Source of the DNA: Halobacteriales archaeon QS_4_69_225
GTDB taxonomy: Archaea > Halobacteriota > Halobacteria > Halobacteriales > Haloarculaceae
NCBI GenBank assembly: GCA_003020965.1
Contig: PXRL01000025.1
Location: 709-42,271 of the forward strand
Direction: 5' to 3'
DNA: 41,563 nucleotides
Made by a program: the position numbers and the translations under genes
The notes under the pieces: generated by a model
The model's input: the letters and a program-made list of their open reading frames with translations, nothing else
Told to the model about the DNA's origin: nothing
The model's database searches: none
Part shown: piece after piece, positions 3,629 to 37,221 of the stretch
How positions within the stretch are numbered: position 1 is the first letter of the stretch
Layout: every line of letters begins with the position of its first letter

Positions 3629-4377
3629 TGCCGGAGCGCACGCGGGCCGCGGTCGTGGCCCTGGCGGTGGTCGGCCTCGTCGCCGGCGGAGCGGCGGCCG
3701 GCGCACAGACGACGCCAACGGTCGAGCCGGGCGACGCGACGGTCGCAGCCGGCGAGACGGCGACCGTCGCGGTGACGCTGTCGGCTGCCCCGGACGGACT
3801 CGCCGGATTCAACCTGACCGTCGAGGCGACGGGCGGGACCGCACGGGTCGTCGGCGCGAGCGCCGCCGACGACTACGGTATCACGACCGAGCGGGTCGAG
3901 GACGGTCGGGCGACGCTCGAGGGCGTCGACATCGACGAGAACGTCCGGGCGGGTGCGACCGACGTCCGGCTCGGAACCGTGACGGTCCGCGGCGAGCGCG
4001 CCGGCGAAATCGACCTCTCGGTGTCCGTCCGCCGGATGGACGACGACGACGGCGACCCGGTGTCGCCGGAGACGGAGCCGGCCGCCCTGACCGTGACCGG
4101 CGGTTCCGGGGACGCCGGAAACGGGAGCGCCAGCGGATCGGACGCGTCGACGGCGACCGCCGCTGTAGGCGGCGGTAACGACGGCGGACCGACGTCGACC
4201 GGGACCCCGGGGACGACCGAATCCGCCGGCACACAGGCTTCCCCGTCGGACGGGGAAGCGGCGGCCGGCGCCCGGGGAATCGCCGGGATACCGTCGGACG
4301 TCGTTGCGGTGGCCCTCGTCGCGCTGCTGGTGGTCGTCTCCTTCGTCGCGGGGCTGGCCGTCGGCCGGTTCCGGTAG
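3628..4377 (+). CDS. Secreted cohesin-like domain protein with C-terminal membrane anchor
   Basis: This 249-aa protein is translationally coupled to the preceding gene (TGATG overlap). It has an N-terminal hydrophobic signal (about residues 8-26), a cohesin-like beta domain (about 28-155), a Ser/Thr/Gly-rich linker likely to be glycosylated (about 155-220) and one C-terminal transmembrane segment (about 226-246) ending in GRFR. The cohesin-like part matches the one in the upstream protein in order and motifs: GLAGFNLTVEA against GLSGFRVTVAV, then a shared MDDDDG loop. The upstream protein also carries a dockerin, so the natural reading is that this protein docks it at the cell surface. That pairing is an inference from adjacency and domain type. 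Confidence 0.75.
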   Translation: MPERTRAAVVALAVVGLVAGGAAAGAQTTPTVEPGDATVAAGETATVAVTLSAAPDGLAGFNLTVEATGGTARVVGASAADDYGITTERVEDGRATLEGVDIDENVRAGATDVRLGTVTVRGERAGEIDLSVSVRRMDDDDGDPVSPETEPAALTVTGGSGDAGNGSASGSDASTATAAVGGGNDGGPTSTGTPGTTESAGTQASPSDGEAAAGARGIAGIPSDVVAVALVALLVVVSFVAGLAVGRFR

Positions 4378-31260: not shown

Positions 31261-31687
31261 ACTGCTTGACCGCATCCTCAACACTACTGCTATGGGCTCT
31301 CAATCCCCGAATCGAGTATACCCCCGAGGCAAGACGGTGTGAAAGGTAATCTTATAAGGCTCGGTTGAAATAAAAGTGTCGGGAACTGCGAGACGGCGGC
31401 GTATCTTGATGGTATAAGTCGATCAAAAGTCGTCTACGCGGTCAACAGCGTGTGGAACGCCCCTGACCGACACCTCGACCCCGTCCCTGGCGTGGAGAAA
31501 GCCGAATGTGGAAATGGGGCTACGCCGGCGGTAACGCCGTCCGGGGGCTGGTTCGGGAATGGCCGGCGACACCGGCGGCGTGCCGGGTTCGGACCCGCCG
31601 GTGAATGACCGCGCCGGCGCTACACACTGATGCCCGACGGAACCCAGTATTATGTTCTATGACCTCATATACAATAACGCGTAGAGA
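31261..31687. other. Island left edge, no gene seen
   Basis: These 427 bp hold mixed composition: an AT-rich part around 31350-31420 (CTTATAAGG, GAAATAAAAG, GGTATAAG) and a GC-rich part at 31500-31620 with short inverted repeats (CGCCGGCGGTAACG). A TATA-like CATATACAATAAC (31665-31677) precedes the small gene at 31688. Confidence 0.45.
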
Positions 31688-31951
31688 ATGTCGCCGATCC
31701 ACCTGCTTGAACTGAACCGCGCCGTCCCGGGCGGCCGTGTCGAGATGTTCGCCGTCACGGACGGCGACTACCCGGGCGGGTGGTTCTATCGATTCCAGTA
31801 CTACGCCCCCGACAACAGGGCGATACTGCGCTACGACAACGCTCACGACGACGACCTCGGCAAGCACCACCGGCACATCCACGCCGGCGAGGACACCGAA
31901 ATCGACTTCGACGGAATCGTGCTCCACGTCGCACGATTCGGACGTAACTAA
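31688..31951 (+). CDS. TumE-like (DUF6516) toxin-family protein, possibly C-terminally truncated
   Basis: This 87-aa protein has the TumE pattern RAILRYDNAHDDDLGKHHRH followed by IDFDGIVLHVARF. The RYDN and HHxH motifs and the VDFDG/RF end are what I know of the DUF6516/TumE toxin family. The family usually continues 10-20 residues beyond the ARF element, whereas this frame stops at RFGRN. The expected partner, an HTH TumA antitoxin, is not seen next to it. It may be a decayed toxin kept after loss of its antitoxin. Confidence 0.6.
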   Translation: MSPIHLLELNRAVPGGRVEMFAVTDGDYPGGWFYRFQYYAPDNRAILRYDNAHDDDLGKHHRHIHAGEDTEIDFDGIVLHVARFGRN

Positions 31952-31954
31952 AAA

Positions 31955-32270
31955 GCGGCTGAATACCACTCACGTCGCGCACGGCGGCTCGACGGACATT
32001 AACTCGCTCACTGGGGCGCAAGCCCTGCTGTTCAGCGATGCAGAGGTCGCAGAGCCGCTTCAAGAGGTCGCCGGGGAGATGCACCCGTGGTACGACGAGT
32101 ACCGCTACGACTCGTTCGAGGACTCCGGCAGTGCCGCTGCACACTACCGCGAGGGGGAGTACCATCCCATGCTAGAGCACAACCTTGCGGACATCCACCG
32201 GACGTGGGAACTGGGCGAGGTCATTCGGGAGTACACCCCCAGTAAGGACATCAGTAGCAAGAAGTTGTAA
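31955..32270 (+). pseudogene. 3' remnant of a gene, possibly a DEDD-type exonuclease
   Basis: A coding-like frame lacks a start codon in its first part and ends at TAA 32268-32270. It reads TDINSLTGAQALLFSDAEVA, then EMHPWYDEYRYDSFEDSG and YHPMLEHNLADIHRTWELGE with an ending SKDISSKKL. The LEHNLADIHRTWEL stretch resembles the last motif (Y/H-x3-D) of DnaQ-like RNase H-fold exonucleases. The first in-frame ATG is at about 32079. I read it as the tail of a truncated gene; the family assignment is tentative. Confidence 0.45.
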
Positions 32271-32324
32271 ATTAAGGCGCTTCAGAGCTAGCGATCGCAC
32301 GCTCCGCAAGTGTAGCGGAAAAAT

Positions 32325-32332
32325 ACTTTATT
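32325..32332 (+). promoter_or_regulatory. TATA-like box for the Argonaute gene
   Basis: ACTTTATT is centred 26 nt before the GTG at 32354, the haloarchaeal leaderless spacing. This favours GTG 32354 over the TTG at 32348. Confidence 0.5.
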
Positions 32333-32353
32333 CGCCCGGGTACCAAATTGCCT

Positions 32354-34552
32354 GTGACGACTTTCACTAACTCATTCAAAATAGATGTGCCAACACTCTC
32401 AGCCCTACAGTACAATATCGATCCTCAGCCACCGCAAGACAGTCCGTGGCAGGATCTAGATAGACTGGAAGATGCTGCGAACAGTGAGACTGGGGGCAGT
32501 GCTACACGATATTCCGAACATGGACAGTGGTGTATTATTGTCTTTGGACCACATGATGCTAGAGAACGCTTCAATACAAACGACGGCTACACGCTAACCA
32601 AACGACAAAGCCTATCGGTCGATCAGACTGACACCTTATATCACGAAGCGATATCAAGTGTCCTCCGCGATTCACTCGAATCATATCTTACTGAGTATGA
32701 AGACTATTGGGAACGTGCCAATAGTCAAGAGTTCTATCGGTCATCTCCAGATGGAACGGCAGCCGGATACGACGCCTACCAGGGGTACGAAACAAAGATC
32801 CAATACAATGATGGGTTCTACTTGACTGTTGATCCTACAGTAAAATACATTTCTAAACATTCTGTCGGAGACTATCTACGGAAAGTCGGTGACAGGGCGG
32901 CTGTGGAAAAGAGAGTGATCAATCGATATTGTACCCTAATGTCAAATGACCGTCCCTCAGTCAAGCTGGTCTCTTTAGCAGAAGATGCTACCGTATCTGA
33001 TAGGACAATCGATAATAGTGGCACCAAGCAGTCGGTAATTGAATATGTAGAGAATGACTACAAATACCCAGACGAAATTGTGGAGAGGATACATGATGAC
33101 GAACCGATTGCCCGGATAAAGTTCCCGTGGAGTGACAATCCAGTTGATTCGGCACCCTCGATACTGCATCCGTTACCGGAAGGCATCGAAGATGAAATGA
33201 GTGAATATTCGATTAAAGATACCGAGCAGCGGTGGAAGGAAACAACTCAGCTACTGAATCAAATTGACTATCTTCAGTTGCTTGACTCCCAATGCGGCGT
33301 TAGTAGCACACCACGCAAAGATGATTACTACAGTTTCAATTACCCCGCGATTCAGTTTGGCGAAGAAAAAATAGTTCGACTCGGTAATGAAAATGAGGTC
33401 GAGCCGAGGCAGACAATCTCACCACACAACTGGCGATACATCATCAGGGATTACCTCGATGAATACGGCGCAGCCGATGGATTCCTCGGGGCACTGAATA
33501 TCGACGTTCTGTATCCAGAAGGGCGCCGTGACACGGCTATCGAAGCCCATCAGCTTGTCTCAGAATATATCTCTACCTATACAGGAACTGCCGTTACCGA
33601 CTCCCCCGGGGGGGTTGCACACGATGATTATCAAAAGTTGGACCAATGGGTCCGTTCGAATGAAGAGAGAAGCGATGGTGTTCTTGTCCTGCTCGACTCA
33701 CACTCGAACGATTACCTCGAGATCGTCTCCGAACTCAACGGGCTTCCTGCACAGGGGCTCCAGCTATCAACTCTCAGAGGATCAACGTCGAACGATGAGT
33801 TCGATGATTCCCTGTTCAACACTGCGCTGGGGATGGCAGTGAAGACTGGAATTCGACCATTTTTACTTGTTGATGGACTATCAGTTGACGTTTGTCTCGG
33901 ATTAAGCGTCACGGGAGATGAGGTGAACAACGCAGCAGCAGTGCTTCTATCTGGGGATGATGGAGATCTTCTCTATCAAACGGAAACCAACTTAGCGACC
34001 GGTAGTAGTACAGTTACCGGAAAAGATGTTGTTAGTCGTGTGATCAGGCAGAGCCTCTCCCAAGCGATTAATAAAGGTCGCCTCGACCAGCCGAACAGTA
34101 TTGCAATCCATCGGAACGGGGACTTCGGGGATGGCGAACTCGATGGGATTAGGGATGGAATTGAGACATTGATCAGTGATAACAACCTGCCTGAGACCGT
34201 CGATTGGTATGCCGCTGAAGTATCGAAAAATTCCCCATACCGACTGTACGAAACAGATGGAGATGCGGTCCGTACCGGTGCGACAATGAGGCTGGACGGA
34301 TCAAACGCACTGGTAACGAGTTACGGTGAGCCGCATCTTCATCAGGGTTCCCCTCAGCCGCTATACTGTACAGTCAAGGACTCGTCTGGGCCGTTCGATA
34401 TGACTGATGTTGCATCCGACATATTCGACCTGTCGTTCCTCAACTGGGGATCGCCTATGATGAAGGTCAAGCTGCCGCTCTCAACGTACCTACCACGGGA
34501 AATGCACGATATCCTCGCCACAGGGACCCGACTGCCATACCCACCTTTTTGA
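32354..34552 (+). CDS. Prokaryotic Argonaute, long type, predicted catalytically inactive PIWI
   Basis: This is a 732-aa protein. The MID end and PIWI start are recognisable: LPAQGLQLSTLRGS, then FNTALGMAVKTGIRPFLLVD, where Gln and Lys497 match the usual guide 5'-phosphate contacts. PIWI motifs follow, but VCLGLSVTG has Ser518 where active enzymes have the first Asp (G-I-D-V-S), and IAIHRNGDF has Asn588 where they have Asp (HRDG). The C-terminus LNWGSPMMKVKLPLSTYLPR matches Argonaute tails. N and PAZ-like regions (about 1-370) are divergent. Two changed catalytic Asp make target cutting unlikely, as in long-B Argonautes that recruit effectors. It is convergent with the protease-like gene, 1 bp between stops. 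Confidence 0.82.
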   Translation: MTTFTNSFKIDVPTLSALQYNIDPQPPQDSPWQDLDRLEDAANSETGGSATRYSEHGQWCIIVFGPHDARERFNTNDGYTLTKRQSLSVDQTDTLYHEAISSVLRDSLESYLTEYEDYWERANSQEFYRSSPDGTAAGYDAYQGYETKIQYNDGFYLTVDPTVKYISKHSVGDYLRKVGDRAAVEKRVINRYCTLMSNDRPSVKLVSLAEDATVSDRTIDNSGTKQSVIEYVENDYKYPDEIVERIHDDEPIARIKFPWSDNPVDSAPSILHPLPEGIEDEMSEYSIKDTEQRWKETTQLLNQIDYLQLLDSQCGVSSTPRKDDYYSFNYPAIQFGEEKIVRLGNENEVEPRQTISPHNWRYIIRDYLDEYGAADGFLGALNIDVLYPEGRRDTAIEAHQLVSEYISTYTGTAVTDSPGGVAHDDYQKLDQWVRSNEERSDGVLVLLDSHSNDYLEIVSELNGLPAQGLQLSTLRGSTSNDEFDDSLFNTALGMAVKTGIRPFLLVDGLSVDVCLGLSVTGDEVNNAAAVLLSGDDGDLLYQTETNLATGSSTVTGKDVVSRVIRQSLSQAINKGRLDQPNSIAIHRNGDFGDGELDGIRDGIETLISDNNLPETVDWYAAEVSKNSPYRLYETDGDAVRTGATMRLDGSNALVTSYGEPHLHQGSPQPLYCTVKDSSGPFDMTDVASDIFDLSFLNWGSPMMKVKLPLSTYLPREMHDILATGTRLPYPPF

Positions 34553-34553
34553 A

Positions 34554-35678
34554 TCACACATTCAGCAGTTCACGGTTCGCTTCGGTTCTCTGTCTCACGG
34601 ACGCTTCGGAACCCCCATCCAGAATGGAAGAACACAACCGGTCAAGATCGGGTTCAAGATACTCTTTAGTTGCTTCTACGACTAGCGTGAGCAATTTCTC
34701 ATTTGTCCATGAGGAGTATCCTGCACGTTTGTGACCGGCTAAGCGTTCGAGATGGTCCTCGTATCTTTCCCGAGCACCCTCAGTCAATTCGTACATCTCC
34801 TGTGAAACGGACTCTCGTAACAGATCCTTCGTAAATCGATATCGGATATCATCTGGTGGATGCTCCCTCGCACTGCCTCGACTAACCAGACGGTATGGGT
34901 TTGCTGACTGCAATCTTCGTACCAGCGTGATGATATACGCTGGACCGAAAGTCAAGACACCGCAGGCGTCACACACCAATTCCGCGAACCAGTTCCTCCA
35001 TGATGAAATAATGAGATCCTGATTCCGGCGTTTGAAATCGCTAGCCCAGTTTTGTAGTACGTCAATATACTTTCTCAGCTTGGCGTGCTTGTCTTCTCTC
35101 ATTTGATCCACTATCGTGTGACCGAGTTCGTGGGCTAGTATGGGGGAGTTTTGTATCGCATTATTATCCCGAGGGAGATGTATTGCATAAAACTGACAAT
35201 ACTGTATCGGGTATGAGCCATACTCCGCCCAAACAACAGGTAGATATTCCCCGTCTACTGCGAGACGGTCATCAACCTCTGAACAGACTTCTTCTGTGTG
35301 GGTCAATCTTGAACCGTACTCCGGCTGCTGCCAGTTATTAACGGTCAGATAGACGAGTGCCCGCTGCAATTCTTCCAGTCGCTGGCTGATCCCATCCATT
35401 TCGTTGAGAAATGGATAGTATTCACGGGAGATCTGGGCTGAGGTGGCATCCTGCTGTTTTAATTGTTCGAATCGGTCGCCATATCTCTGAGCTTCGCGGA
35501 GCCTTTCCTCAAGTTCAGTCTCAATCTGACAGTAAGCACCCGGGAGGTCAAAATCAAGATTATCAGCCTGAAGCTGAACCTGCTCCAAGTGTGTCTCTAA
35601 ATCATCCAATCGAGATATCGATAGGTCAGTTGGCAAGATTGTCTTGCAACTGTTTCGCTTCAGATTCGGAGATGTCAC
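34554..35678 (-). CDS. Zinc metalloprotease-like protein (HELGH, gluzincin type)
   Basis: This is a 374-aa protein. Residues 1-120 are helical and probably coiled-coil (LETHLEQVQLQADNLDF, EMDGISQRLEELQRALVYLT). Zinc site: SPILAHELGHTIVDQ gives H183, E184 and H187; 46 residues on, NWFAELVCDACG gives E233 and D237, the E-x3-D third-ligand helix of gluzincins. No signal peptide, so cytoplasmic. A C-terminal helical part follows. The start overlaps the upstream 147-aa gene by 53 bp; a TTG near 35636 is an alternative. Low GC and codon use match the Argonaute gene. I suggest it as the Argonaute's effector; no known family name can be given. Confidence 0.72.
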   Translation of the reverse strand: MTSPNLKRNSCKTILPTDLSISRLDDLETHLEQVQLQADNLDFDLPGAYCQIETELEERLREAQRYGDRFEQLKQQDATSAQISREYYPFLNEMDGISQRLEELQRALVYLTVNNWQQPEYGSRLTHTEEVCSEVDDRLAVDGEYLPVVWAEYGSYPIQYCQFYAIHLPRDNNAIQNSPILAHELGHTIVDQMREDKHAKLRKYIDVLQNWASDFKRRNQDLIISSWRNWFAELVCDACGVLTFGPAYIITLVRRLQSANPYRLVSRGSAREHPPDDIRYRFTKDLLRESVSQEMYELTEGARERYEDHLERLAGHKRAGYSSWTNEKLLTLVVEATKEYLEPDLDRLCSSILDGGSEASVRQRTEANRELLNV

Positions 35679-36069
35679 CCGCTATCTGTTCGACAGTCAG
35701 TAGCACCTTGCGGGCTTCCTCCAGCCCTGCGATTGCGGTCCTCTGTTGTTCAGCTTCTAGAATGGTTTGAATGGCTGTCCCTAGTCTTTCTGCCCCATCT
35801 TCGGGGACCACCCGCCACTCATCACAGAGAGCTTGTGCTAGTTCGTAGGTGTAATTGTCCGCATTTTCCGGCTCAATCAGGGCATCTCGAAGCTCCTCAA
35901 GCAGTTCTCTCGCTTCAGAGAGGCTGGAAATGAGCTTCTCGCTATCGCTGTCAGCTTCGATGCCCTCTCTTTCGTTCATGAGCATCCCAACGACTAACAG
36001 AGCGGAATTAGCCCGGTCACTGAAGCGGCGATTTTCATCATATCGCCGCTTTCTCCGCCAGATGCTCAT
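35626..36069 (-). CDS. 147-aa helical protein upstream of the protease
   Basis: This protein starts MSIWRRKRRYDENRRFSDRA and is almost fully helical, with acidic heptad-like runs (SEKLISSLSEARELLEELRD; LEEARKVLLTVEQIAGDISE). A moderately hydrophobic patch (NSALLVVGMLMNE) near residues 22-34 is too short and polar for a clear membrane span. It overlaps the protease-like gene by 53 bp, so they are co-transcribed and probably made together. No family is recognised. Given position it could be an adaptor or inhibitor of the protease. Confidence 0.65.
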   Translation of the reverse strand: MSIWRRKRRYDENRRFSDRANSALLVVGMLMNEREGIEADSDSEKLISSLSEARELLEELRDALIEPENADNYTYELAQALCDEWRVVPEDGAERLGTAIQTILEAEQQRTAIAGLEEARKVLLTVEQIAGDISESEAKQLQDNLAN

Positions 36070-36100
36070 CTGTTCTGTCGCTCAATATGGTTCGTTTGGA

Positions 36101-36109
36101 TGTAAAAGC
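36101..36109 (-). promoter_or_regulatory. TATA-like box for the protease operon
   Basis: On the minus strand CTTTTACA (36101-36109) is centred about 36 nt before the ATG at 36069, which would give a leader of about 10 nt. Confidence 0.4.
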
Positions 36110-36157
36110 TTTGTTGCTTTTGAACAGTTTAGAATACGTGACCTGCTGACTATTTAA

Positions 36158-36194
36158 ATATAGAGACATGATAGCAACAATGTGTCTCAAATAT
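36158..36194. promoter_or_regulatory. Inverted repeat in AT-rich spacer
   Basis: GAGACA (36163-36168) and TGTCTC (36183-36188) are perfect arms 14 nt apart, extended outward by ATATA and ATATAT. It lies in the very AT-rich spacer (36070-36277) upstream of the protease operon, which also has TATTTAAATA and TATATAATA runs. It could be an operator or a melted/cruciform element. Confidence 0.4.
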
Positions 36195-36277
36195 ATTCTA
36201 TCGTATATAATATCCCGATTCTCAGTCTTGACCAGTCCGCCTGCATGACTCCCCCTTTGCGAACGGTGTTTTTGTGA

Positions 36278-37200
36278 TTATACGACCCTGTAGGTTCGCC
36301 CCCGAGTCTGTCCTTCGGCCTCGATCAGATTGTACTGTTCGAGCTTCCGCAGATAGTTCCGCAGCATCCGCTCAGACTTCGGGTCCCCTATGCGGTCGCG
36401 ATACTCGGTGTAGAGCGTCTGTGGCTTCACGACTTCACGCTCGGTGATGATCTCGTACAGCGTCTGCTGATGCTCGTTCAGCCGGTCGAGACTCTTCTTG
36501 CGGACCTCTATCTTCGCCTCGGGGAGAGCAGCTTCAACCATCTCATCAGTGATGCGGTCGGTCTGCTGGTGCCGTGCCTGCCGGGCAGCCGCCTGCAGTG
36601 TCTTGATAGCCACCCAAGCATCGCCCGCGGCGACGTCGGTGATCTGCTCCAACTGCTCGGCGGTTACGGCGTCATCGTGGAGGCCCCAGCGCACGCGGTC
36701 CTCCAGAATCGACACGAGGGTGTCGTCACCATAGGCGTCAAATCGGACGCTGTTGGCACTCCGCAACCGACTGGCGAGGCGTTCGTCCAGTCGGTTGTAG
36801 AAGCGGTTCTCGTGGTTAGCGATTAGTACCAGCGTCAGTCCGCGTGTGCGGGCAAGGTCGTACAGGGTATCGGGTTGCTCAAGCTGGTCAACTTCCTCGA
36901 TGATGACCACCGCGGGCGTCCCGCCACGGTCCGTAGACGGTCCACGAGAGCGTCCGTCGGGGTGGACTGCCGGTGAATGTCGAGTGCGTTATCGAGCGCT
37001 TTCAGTACGCTGTAGAGGACTTTGAATCGGGTGCGCTCACCCCAGCAGTTGGCGTAGCCGGTCTTCAGGTCCAGCACCTCTTCGGAGAGTTGATTGACTG
37101 CGTAGCGGGCAATTACTGACGTTTTTTCGCCGTAGCTCCGCTGACTAATCTTCTCTGTCCGGCGCTGAGCCCGGTCTAATGCAAAATACTCACCTACTGT
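36278..37200 (-). pseudogene. Orc1/Cdc6 family initiator, broken
   Basis: The minus strand codes for an Orc1/Cdc6 AAA+ protein in two frames. The upstream part (37200 to about 36925) has YGEKTSVIARYAVNQLSEEV, a damaged Walker A lacking the G-x4-GKT, then NCWGERTRFKVLYSVLKALD. After a shift near 36925-36935 the frame continues GGTPAVVIIEEVDQLEQPDT (Walker B IIEEVD), LVLIANHENRF (sensor 1), the lid, and a winged-helix end (LNEHQQTLYEIITEREVVKP) to the stop at 36278. The 5' end is also missing. It is a relic of a plasmid- or virus-like replicon, not a working initiator. Confidence 0.8.
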
Positions 37201-37221
37201 TCAGGGGTGGGAGGAAGTTAA

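Follow-up and report, generated by a model that had tools for sequence, protein, structure and literature searches.

Gene Content of the Locus

This study was concerned with a three-gene module in a 41,563-nucleotide stretch of DNA from Halobacteriales archaeon QS_4_69_225 (contig PXRL01000025.1, positions 709 to 42,271), hereafter called the window. The module encodes a long Argonaute, a predicted gluzincin-type metalloprotease and a small protein that is predicted to be helical. Together, the Argonaute and the protease likely represent an immune system that has not been described. The Argonaute (732 amino acids) is encoded at positions 32354-34552 of the plus strand. The protease (374 amino acids as listed; 34554-35678, minus strand) is predicted to have an N-terminal helical bundle (residues 17-139) and a catalytic domain (approximately residues 140-366). 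The third gene (35626-36069, minus strand) overlaps the protease start and encodes a 147-amino acid protein predicted to be all-helical (AlphaFold2 predicted local distance difference test score of 93.0). A preliminary description of the window, made from its letters, had placed the three open reading frames (ORFs) in this arrangement with the Argonaute and the HELGH protein converging at 1 bp, and both points were borne out, the two stops lying 1 bp apart. The protease probably starts at the TTG at 35634-35636, so that it would overlap the small gene by 11 bp, as the G065 copy does.

Co-occurrence of the Argonaute and the Protease

Strong relatives of the protease (E-values of 1.5e-63 or better) were found in 10 of 391 Halobacteria genomes, and full-length relatives of the Argonaute (1.1e-139 or better) were also found in 10. 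These are the same 10 genomes, and in each of them the two genes converge and abut. The junction is a 4-bp overlap in six, a 16-bp overlap in two, a 20-bp overlap in one and the 1-bp gap in the window. The naive chance of this coincidence is 5e-20, a figure that ignores relatedness and gene transfer. The small gene lies ahead of the protease in all 10 loci. BLAST finds eight of these small genes (window included), and those of G269 and G048 were recognised by their position and aligned N-terminus. Weak partial protease matches in G268 and G180 (E-values of 1e-4 and 7e-4) and a weak second match in G000 were left out of the protease counts. Seven further Halobacteria genomes hold other Argonautes, detected as partial matches (E-values of 2.6e-5 to 1e-14), and no protease. 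Identity to the window falls to 29% for the haloarchaeal Argonautes and 27% for the proteases, and thus the linkage between them is old.

The window protease also identified six haloarchaeal plasmids, from Halorientalis IM1011 (the same as the G058 copy), Halorussus, Halosimplex, Halobacterium salinarum, Natrinema and Haloplanus. The three genes are present on each of these plasmids, whose records annotate them as hypothetical proteins. Two module copies each are present in Halorussus and Halosimplex. One copy of each (L045, 5586-9315; L098, 828-4530) has a frameshifted protease and Argonaute next to a small gene that is still open (2 of 2), and in the other Halosimplex copy (L046) the Argonaute is frameshifted near its start. 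In Natrinema caseinilyticum (L048, 7114-9999) about 2.9 kb of inserted DNA, including an IS5-family transposase, splits the protease from the Argonaute. When the window Argonaute was used as the query, eight of nine records carried the protease. The ninth, a Natrarchaeobaculum plasmid (L100, 3375-8067), encodes an Argonaute with a phospholipase-D partner and has neither the protease nor the small gene.

The module extends beyond the haloarchaea. Argonaute, small protein and protease were identified together on a Nitrosopumilus metagenome-assembled genome (MAG) contig (L033, in which the Argonaute is incomplete and reaches the contig end), on two viral contigs (L034 and L053) and in an archaeon from another class of the phylum (L063, from G553). 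Protease queries from L063, Rhizobium and Runella added five bacterial plasmids, from Rhizobium, Runella, Spirosoma, Emticicia and an Aphanizomenonaceae cyanobacterium. L063 and these five plasmids share a one-strand order of Cas4-like nuclease, Argonaute, small protein and protease. PADLOC assigned Aga_Cas4-like_Nuc to all three of the nucleases scanned, the other three of the six matching by BLAST, and it classed the six Argonautes as pAgo_II (pAgo, prokaryotic Argonaute). In the haloarchaeal loci, a tblastn search at 1e-5 that used three Cas4-like queries gave no match. With the Runella Argonaute as the query, five of five records carried the protease, and these were the same five bacterial plasmids.

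Every protease-family copy whose surroundings were read (26 of 26) lies with an Argonaute, 20 convergently and six co-directionally, so the association that the preliminary description had proposed holds wherever it could be read. The surroundings of the metagenome proteins P0002-P0020 fall outside this count, except P0003, which is the G065 copy. L053 is no test of the protease-to-Argonaute direction because it was found with the Argonaute. The genes remain adjacent even where their proteins are only 14-20% identical to those of the window, in archaea as well as in three bacterial phyla and in two gene orders. A weak profile match in G423 (E-value of 3e-4; the 514-amino acid L064) was rejected, as BLAST at 1e-4 did not match it to the family; no Argonaute was found there among ORFs of at least 120 amino acids between positions 4000 and 10500. 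The weak matches in G046 and G069 were set aside; in all, five weak matches besides that in G423 (E-values of 1e-4 to 1e-3) stand outside the counts.

Co-inheritance of the Three Genes

Trees of 21 Argonautes and 21 proteases had 15 of 18 splits in common, compared with a mean of 0.29 and a maximum of 5 in 2000 label shuffles. The Mantel correlation between the two was 0.97, and it was 0.90 within the 13 haloarchaeal copies. The discordant splits concern the order of haloarchaeal clades. Between the small-protein and Argonaute trees, 11 of 18 splits were shared (r = 0.81). The deepest joins of the Argonaute tree are unsure because long branches meet there (L063, the viral pair and some bacteria), as a warning from the tree tool indicated. 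The trees omit L033, whose Argonaute is cut by the contig end, the frameshifted L045, L046 and L098, L050 and L032, which are the same as L037 and L038, and also L099. The Argonaute and the protease are almost certainly functionally linked.

Class and Critical Residues of the Argonaute

The PADLOC model PprPIWI matched the window Argonaute at 1.5e-84 over residues 2-724, with further pAgo models ranking behind it. A profile built from the relatives had VbAgo as its top solved chain (7.8e-55, profile positions 85-713), followed by 7r8f (4e-47), and a chain named EcAgo scored 8.9e-10. MID-PIWI homology together with full length places the protein among the long prokaryotic Argonautes. The assignment to long-B that the preliminary description implied finds no support in these scores. 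The nearest solved chains are VbAgo and 7r8f, with EcAgo (which we take to be long-B by its name only) far behind, and the bacterial members score best with the Class II models of PADLOC.

The same description had read Ser518 (GLSV), Asn588 (HRNG) and the MID signature AVKTGIRPFLL in this protein, and all three are present. In a profile alignment to VbAgo, S518 (codon 33905-33907, plus strand) and N588 (codon 34115-34117, plus strand) fall at the positions where the wild-type chain 9v65 has Asp and the double mutant 9v7s has Ala. These are the first and second catalytic Asp positions of PIWI, the second lying in HRDG in relatives and HRNG in the window. The two aspartates of an active slicer are therefore not intact in the window Argonaute, as had been suspected.

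Residue and motif counts were taken from alignment columns over 21 copies. At the two PIWI positions, 11 of the 13 haloarchaeal copies have S/N and two have D/G, so that at least one Asp is lost in all 13. All eight non-haloarchaeal copies have D/D, and the Argonaute fragment of the Nitrosopumilus contig L033 reads GIDVGG and YRDGY. Thus, a dead PIWI is a haloarchaeal trait and does not define the system; the nuclease-dead Argonaute put forward as its hallmark describes the haloarchaeal copies and fails in the eight others. In the MID domain, Y454 and K497 are conserved throughout the 13 haloarchaeal and two viral copies, whereas L063 and the five bacterial copies have neither; Q467 is retained in 19 of 21. 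Because these residues are kept, the haloarchaeal and viral Argonautes are predicted to bind a guide, their MID residues fitting recognition of a 5'-phosphate.

The Protease and the Small Protein

Three motifs of the protease, HExxH, ExxxD and HPxxxxR, are kept in all 21 copies. In the window they are HELGH (H183-H187, 35118-35132, minus strand), whose H, E and H are invariant; ExxxD (E233-D237, 34968-34982, minus strand), which is expected to supply the third zinc ligand and whose E and D are invariant; and HPPxxxR (H273-R279, 34842-34862, minus strand), whose H, first P and R are invariant, the second P being present in 18 of 21. The combination of HExxH with a downstream Glu that characterizes gluzincins of clan MA(E) is therefore found in 21 of 21 copies. 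The HPxxxxR motif resembles a motif of M48. The window protease scored above cut-off with no Pfam or NCBIfam model and fell into no PADLOC family, and none of the scanned proteases or small proteins was matched by a PADLOC model. Similarity to Pfam Peptidase_M78 is weak and sub-threshold (10 of 17 members, best 0.007), and M48 reached a best value of 0.21 in two of 17. No membrane segment was identified in the window protease, and the Pfam scan of the window protease and Argonaute gave no CHAT domain. We infer that the protease is soluble and active. Judged by these alignments, PIWI cutting has probably been lost in the haloarchaeal branch while the active site of the protease has been kept.

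The small protein had no match to a helix-turn-helix (HTH) family and is a plain helical bundle by structure prediction. It has a counterpart in all 10 of the haloarchaeal genome loci.

Genomic Setting of the Module

The module of the window is carried by a 5.96-kb insertion (31261-37221) with a guanine-cytosine (GC) content of 0.523, compared with 0.696 in the rest of the window. All 20 genomes of the genus, counting that of the window itself, contain DNA of both its left and its right flank (20 of 20), and in the four sister genomes aligned (of 19) the flanking genes are separated by 4 to 65 bp. By match coordinates (junction 31260/37222), the flanks are separated by about 1.8 kb in G252, G702 and G703 and by 1.0 kb in G288, and thus the site may take insertions repeatedly. 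The HELGH protein and the small protein had been described as the only neighbours sharing the low GC of the Argonaute. The low GC was confirmed, but the exclusivity was not, since the insertion also holds a TumE-like toxin ORF at its left (31688-31951; Pfam 1.5e-10) and a fragment matching the C-terminal two thirds of Orc1/Cdc6 (36278-36910). These two features suggest that the insertion is of plasmid origin. By eye, an apparent upstream part of the Orc1/Cdc6 fragment lies in a different frame at 36835-37077, and the two together may be a plasmid remnant. No clear terminal repeats were seen at the insertion.

Eleven plasmid records and the window insertion carry the module. Many copies are thus on mobile DNA, and defence genes lie near some copies. 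For example, multiubiquitin and ThiF genes lie near the module in Runella (L066, 8225-10085) and Spirosoma (L067, 1-1215), and in Rhizobium a phospholipase gene of a cyclic-oligonucleotide-based anti-phage signalling system (CBASS) overlaps the protease end (L065, 8079-9038). An ORF resembling a type I restriction-modification subunit (by eye) stands beside the archaeal operon copy L063 (6475-9255). The viral-classed contigs (L034, 5620-15854; L053, 1-13433) have tail-like and terminase-like proteins nearby (by eye), and L034 also holds a type III restriction-like helicase. The protease and Argonaute overlap stop to stop by 36 bp in L034, 36 bp in L053 and 20 bp in L033, more than the 4 bp common in haloarchaea. 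UvrD/AddAB-like helicase-nuclease genes are present within the fetched flanks of 10 of 15 distinct haloarchaeal loci (L035, L038-L043, L045, L047 and L049) and directly adjoin the module in L042, L045, L047 and L049. These helicase-nucleases are a possible source of guides.

Proposed Function and Alternatives

By analogy with the BPAN, BPAS and BPAM systems (PMC10620215) and with Craspase, the module may be a defence system in which guided recognition by the Argonaute switches on the protease and the invaded cell is arrested. We give this reading an even chance. A guide-loaded Argonaute would act as the sensor and recognise nucleic acid of the invader, recognition would activate the protease, and the activated protease would cleave proteins of the cell, likely halting growth of the infected cell. 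The small protein may hold or couple the protease, because its gene overlaps the protease start, an arrangement familiar from antidote-toxin pairs. In bacteria, the Argonaute with its kept aspartates would also cut the target, or guides would be processed by the Cas4-like nuclease, and the protease would form a second arm. The haloarchaeal module would have lost target cutting and would retain the protease as its only effector. The wider proposition, that this is a guide-programmed metalloprotease of an ancient archaeal and bacterial Argonaute immunity that turns nucleic-acid recognition into proteolysis, with the haloarchaeal Argonaute a pure sensor, is held tentatively, at somewhat short of an even chance. 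Since the module occurs in two versions, with the PIWI aspartates kept or lost, a non-cutting role of the Argonaute is directly testable.

Several other explanations were weighed. First, the protease could be a regulator like ImmA/IrrE that, once signalled, cuts a repressor or anti-factor and thereby switches on the Argonaute system or a wider response, the Argonaute working without the protease. The sub-threshold similarity to Peptidase_M78 agrees with this, as do the HTH or sigma-factor genes that precede the operon in Rhizobium, Runella, Spirosoma and Emticicia. However, the haloarchaeal module has no HTH gene, its dead PIWI leaves it with no other enzyme, and the small protein is a predicted plain bundle lacking an HTH family match. 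We regard this explanation as unlikely.

Secondly, the protease could mature or turn over its partners, for example by trimming the small protein or the Argonaute, while the Argonaute complex itself defends. Strict co-inheritance with the Argonaute is what a dedicated substrate would lead one to expect, and a paired protease that activates a proenzyme in bacterial immunity is reported in PMC12799240. If the protease only processes, however, nothing in the haloarchaeal module is left to kill, and the chance of this explanation appears slim.

Third, the small protein and protease could form an antidote-toxin pair in its own right, one that accompanies the Argonaute and stabilises the plasmid or island. 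Both the order of the two genes and their overlap resemble those of antidote-toxin pairs. The frequent location on plasmids and in the window insertion fits this explanation, as does the small gene that stays open in both copies in which the protease and Argonaute are broken. Against it, none of the 26 copies read has a protease-small protein pair apart from an Argonaute, and the agreement between the protease and Argonaute trees is closer than an independent passenger needs, which makes this explanation improbable. Lastly, a chance or hitch-hiking neighbourhood with no shared function, for which the many copies on mobile DNA might speak, can practically be dismissed, since adjacency persists at 14-20% identity across archaea, three bacterial phyla and two gene orders and since the shared 10 genomes and the tree agreement contradict it.

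Comparison with Known Systems

To our knowledge, the Argonaute effectors recognised so far act on nucleic acid, NAD or membranes. The preliminary description knew of no Argonaute system with a protease of this type, and this stands: no Argonaute-metalloprotease system was found in the open-access literature, preprints and most subscription journals being outside the scope of the search. The words "protease", "peptidase" and "metallo" are absent from the main texts of PMC2743648 and PMC6299218. The rules used in surveys may explain why the pair was passed by. Makarova 2009 (PMC2743648) required that neighbours share a strand, and Song 2023 (PMC10620215) assigned the label "none" where adjacent genes form no operon-like structure. 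Such rules would miss the tail-to-tail haloarchaeal pair. The protease partner would also supply an annotation for genes called hypothetical in the plasmid records.

Among the closest parallels are the long-B systems BPAN, BPAS and BPAM, which according to PMC10620215 have a PIWI-dead long Argonaute, a dedicated partner gene, agreeing trees and an effector that would act after target recognition. In these systems the partner, encoded downstream of the Argonaute, is a nuclease, a SIR2 protein or a membrane protein, whereas here the partner is a metalloprotease with a small protein, tail to tail with the Argonaute in haloarchaea. The partner here belongs to none of those three types, as no Pfam or PADLOC family above cut-off and no membrane segment was found in it.

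The bacterial copies and L063 resemble the Class II pAgos with a Cas4-like nuclease (Aga_Cas4-like_Nuc of PADLOC) in having that pair, and the association of pAgos with Cas4 is noted in PMC2743648 and PMC6299218. Unlike those systems, the small protein and protease genes follow here, and in the haloarchaeal loci tblastn at 1e-5 found no such nuclease. The active haloarchaeal pAgo with a phospholipase D is likewise a haloarchaeal Argonaute with a partner gene, but the single such locus met (L100) has neither the protease nor the small gene. The protease itself shares HExxH and a downstream ExxxD with the ImmA/IrrE (M78) and M48 metallopeptidases. However, no scanned member reaches the Pfam cut-off for either, and the family has an N-terminal helical bundle of its own.

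If the proposed model is right, the module is like Craspase, the type III-E CRISPR system of Cas7-11 with TPR-CHAT, in that guided recognition activates a protease. It differs in pairing a zinc-type protease with an Argonaute, in place of TPR-CHAT with a CRISPR effector, and matches no CHAT domain. It would then be an Argonaute counterpart of Craspase assembled from unrelated parts. A protease partner inherited with the Argonaute in both archaea and bacteria would, if true, bring proteolysis into the repertoire of guided immunity and represent a natural programmable protease.

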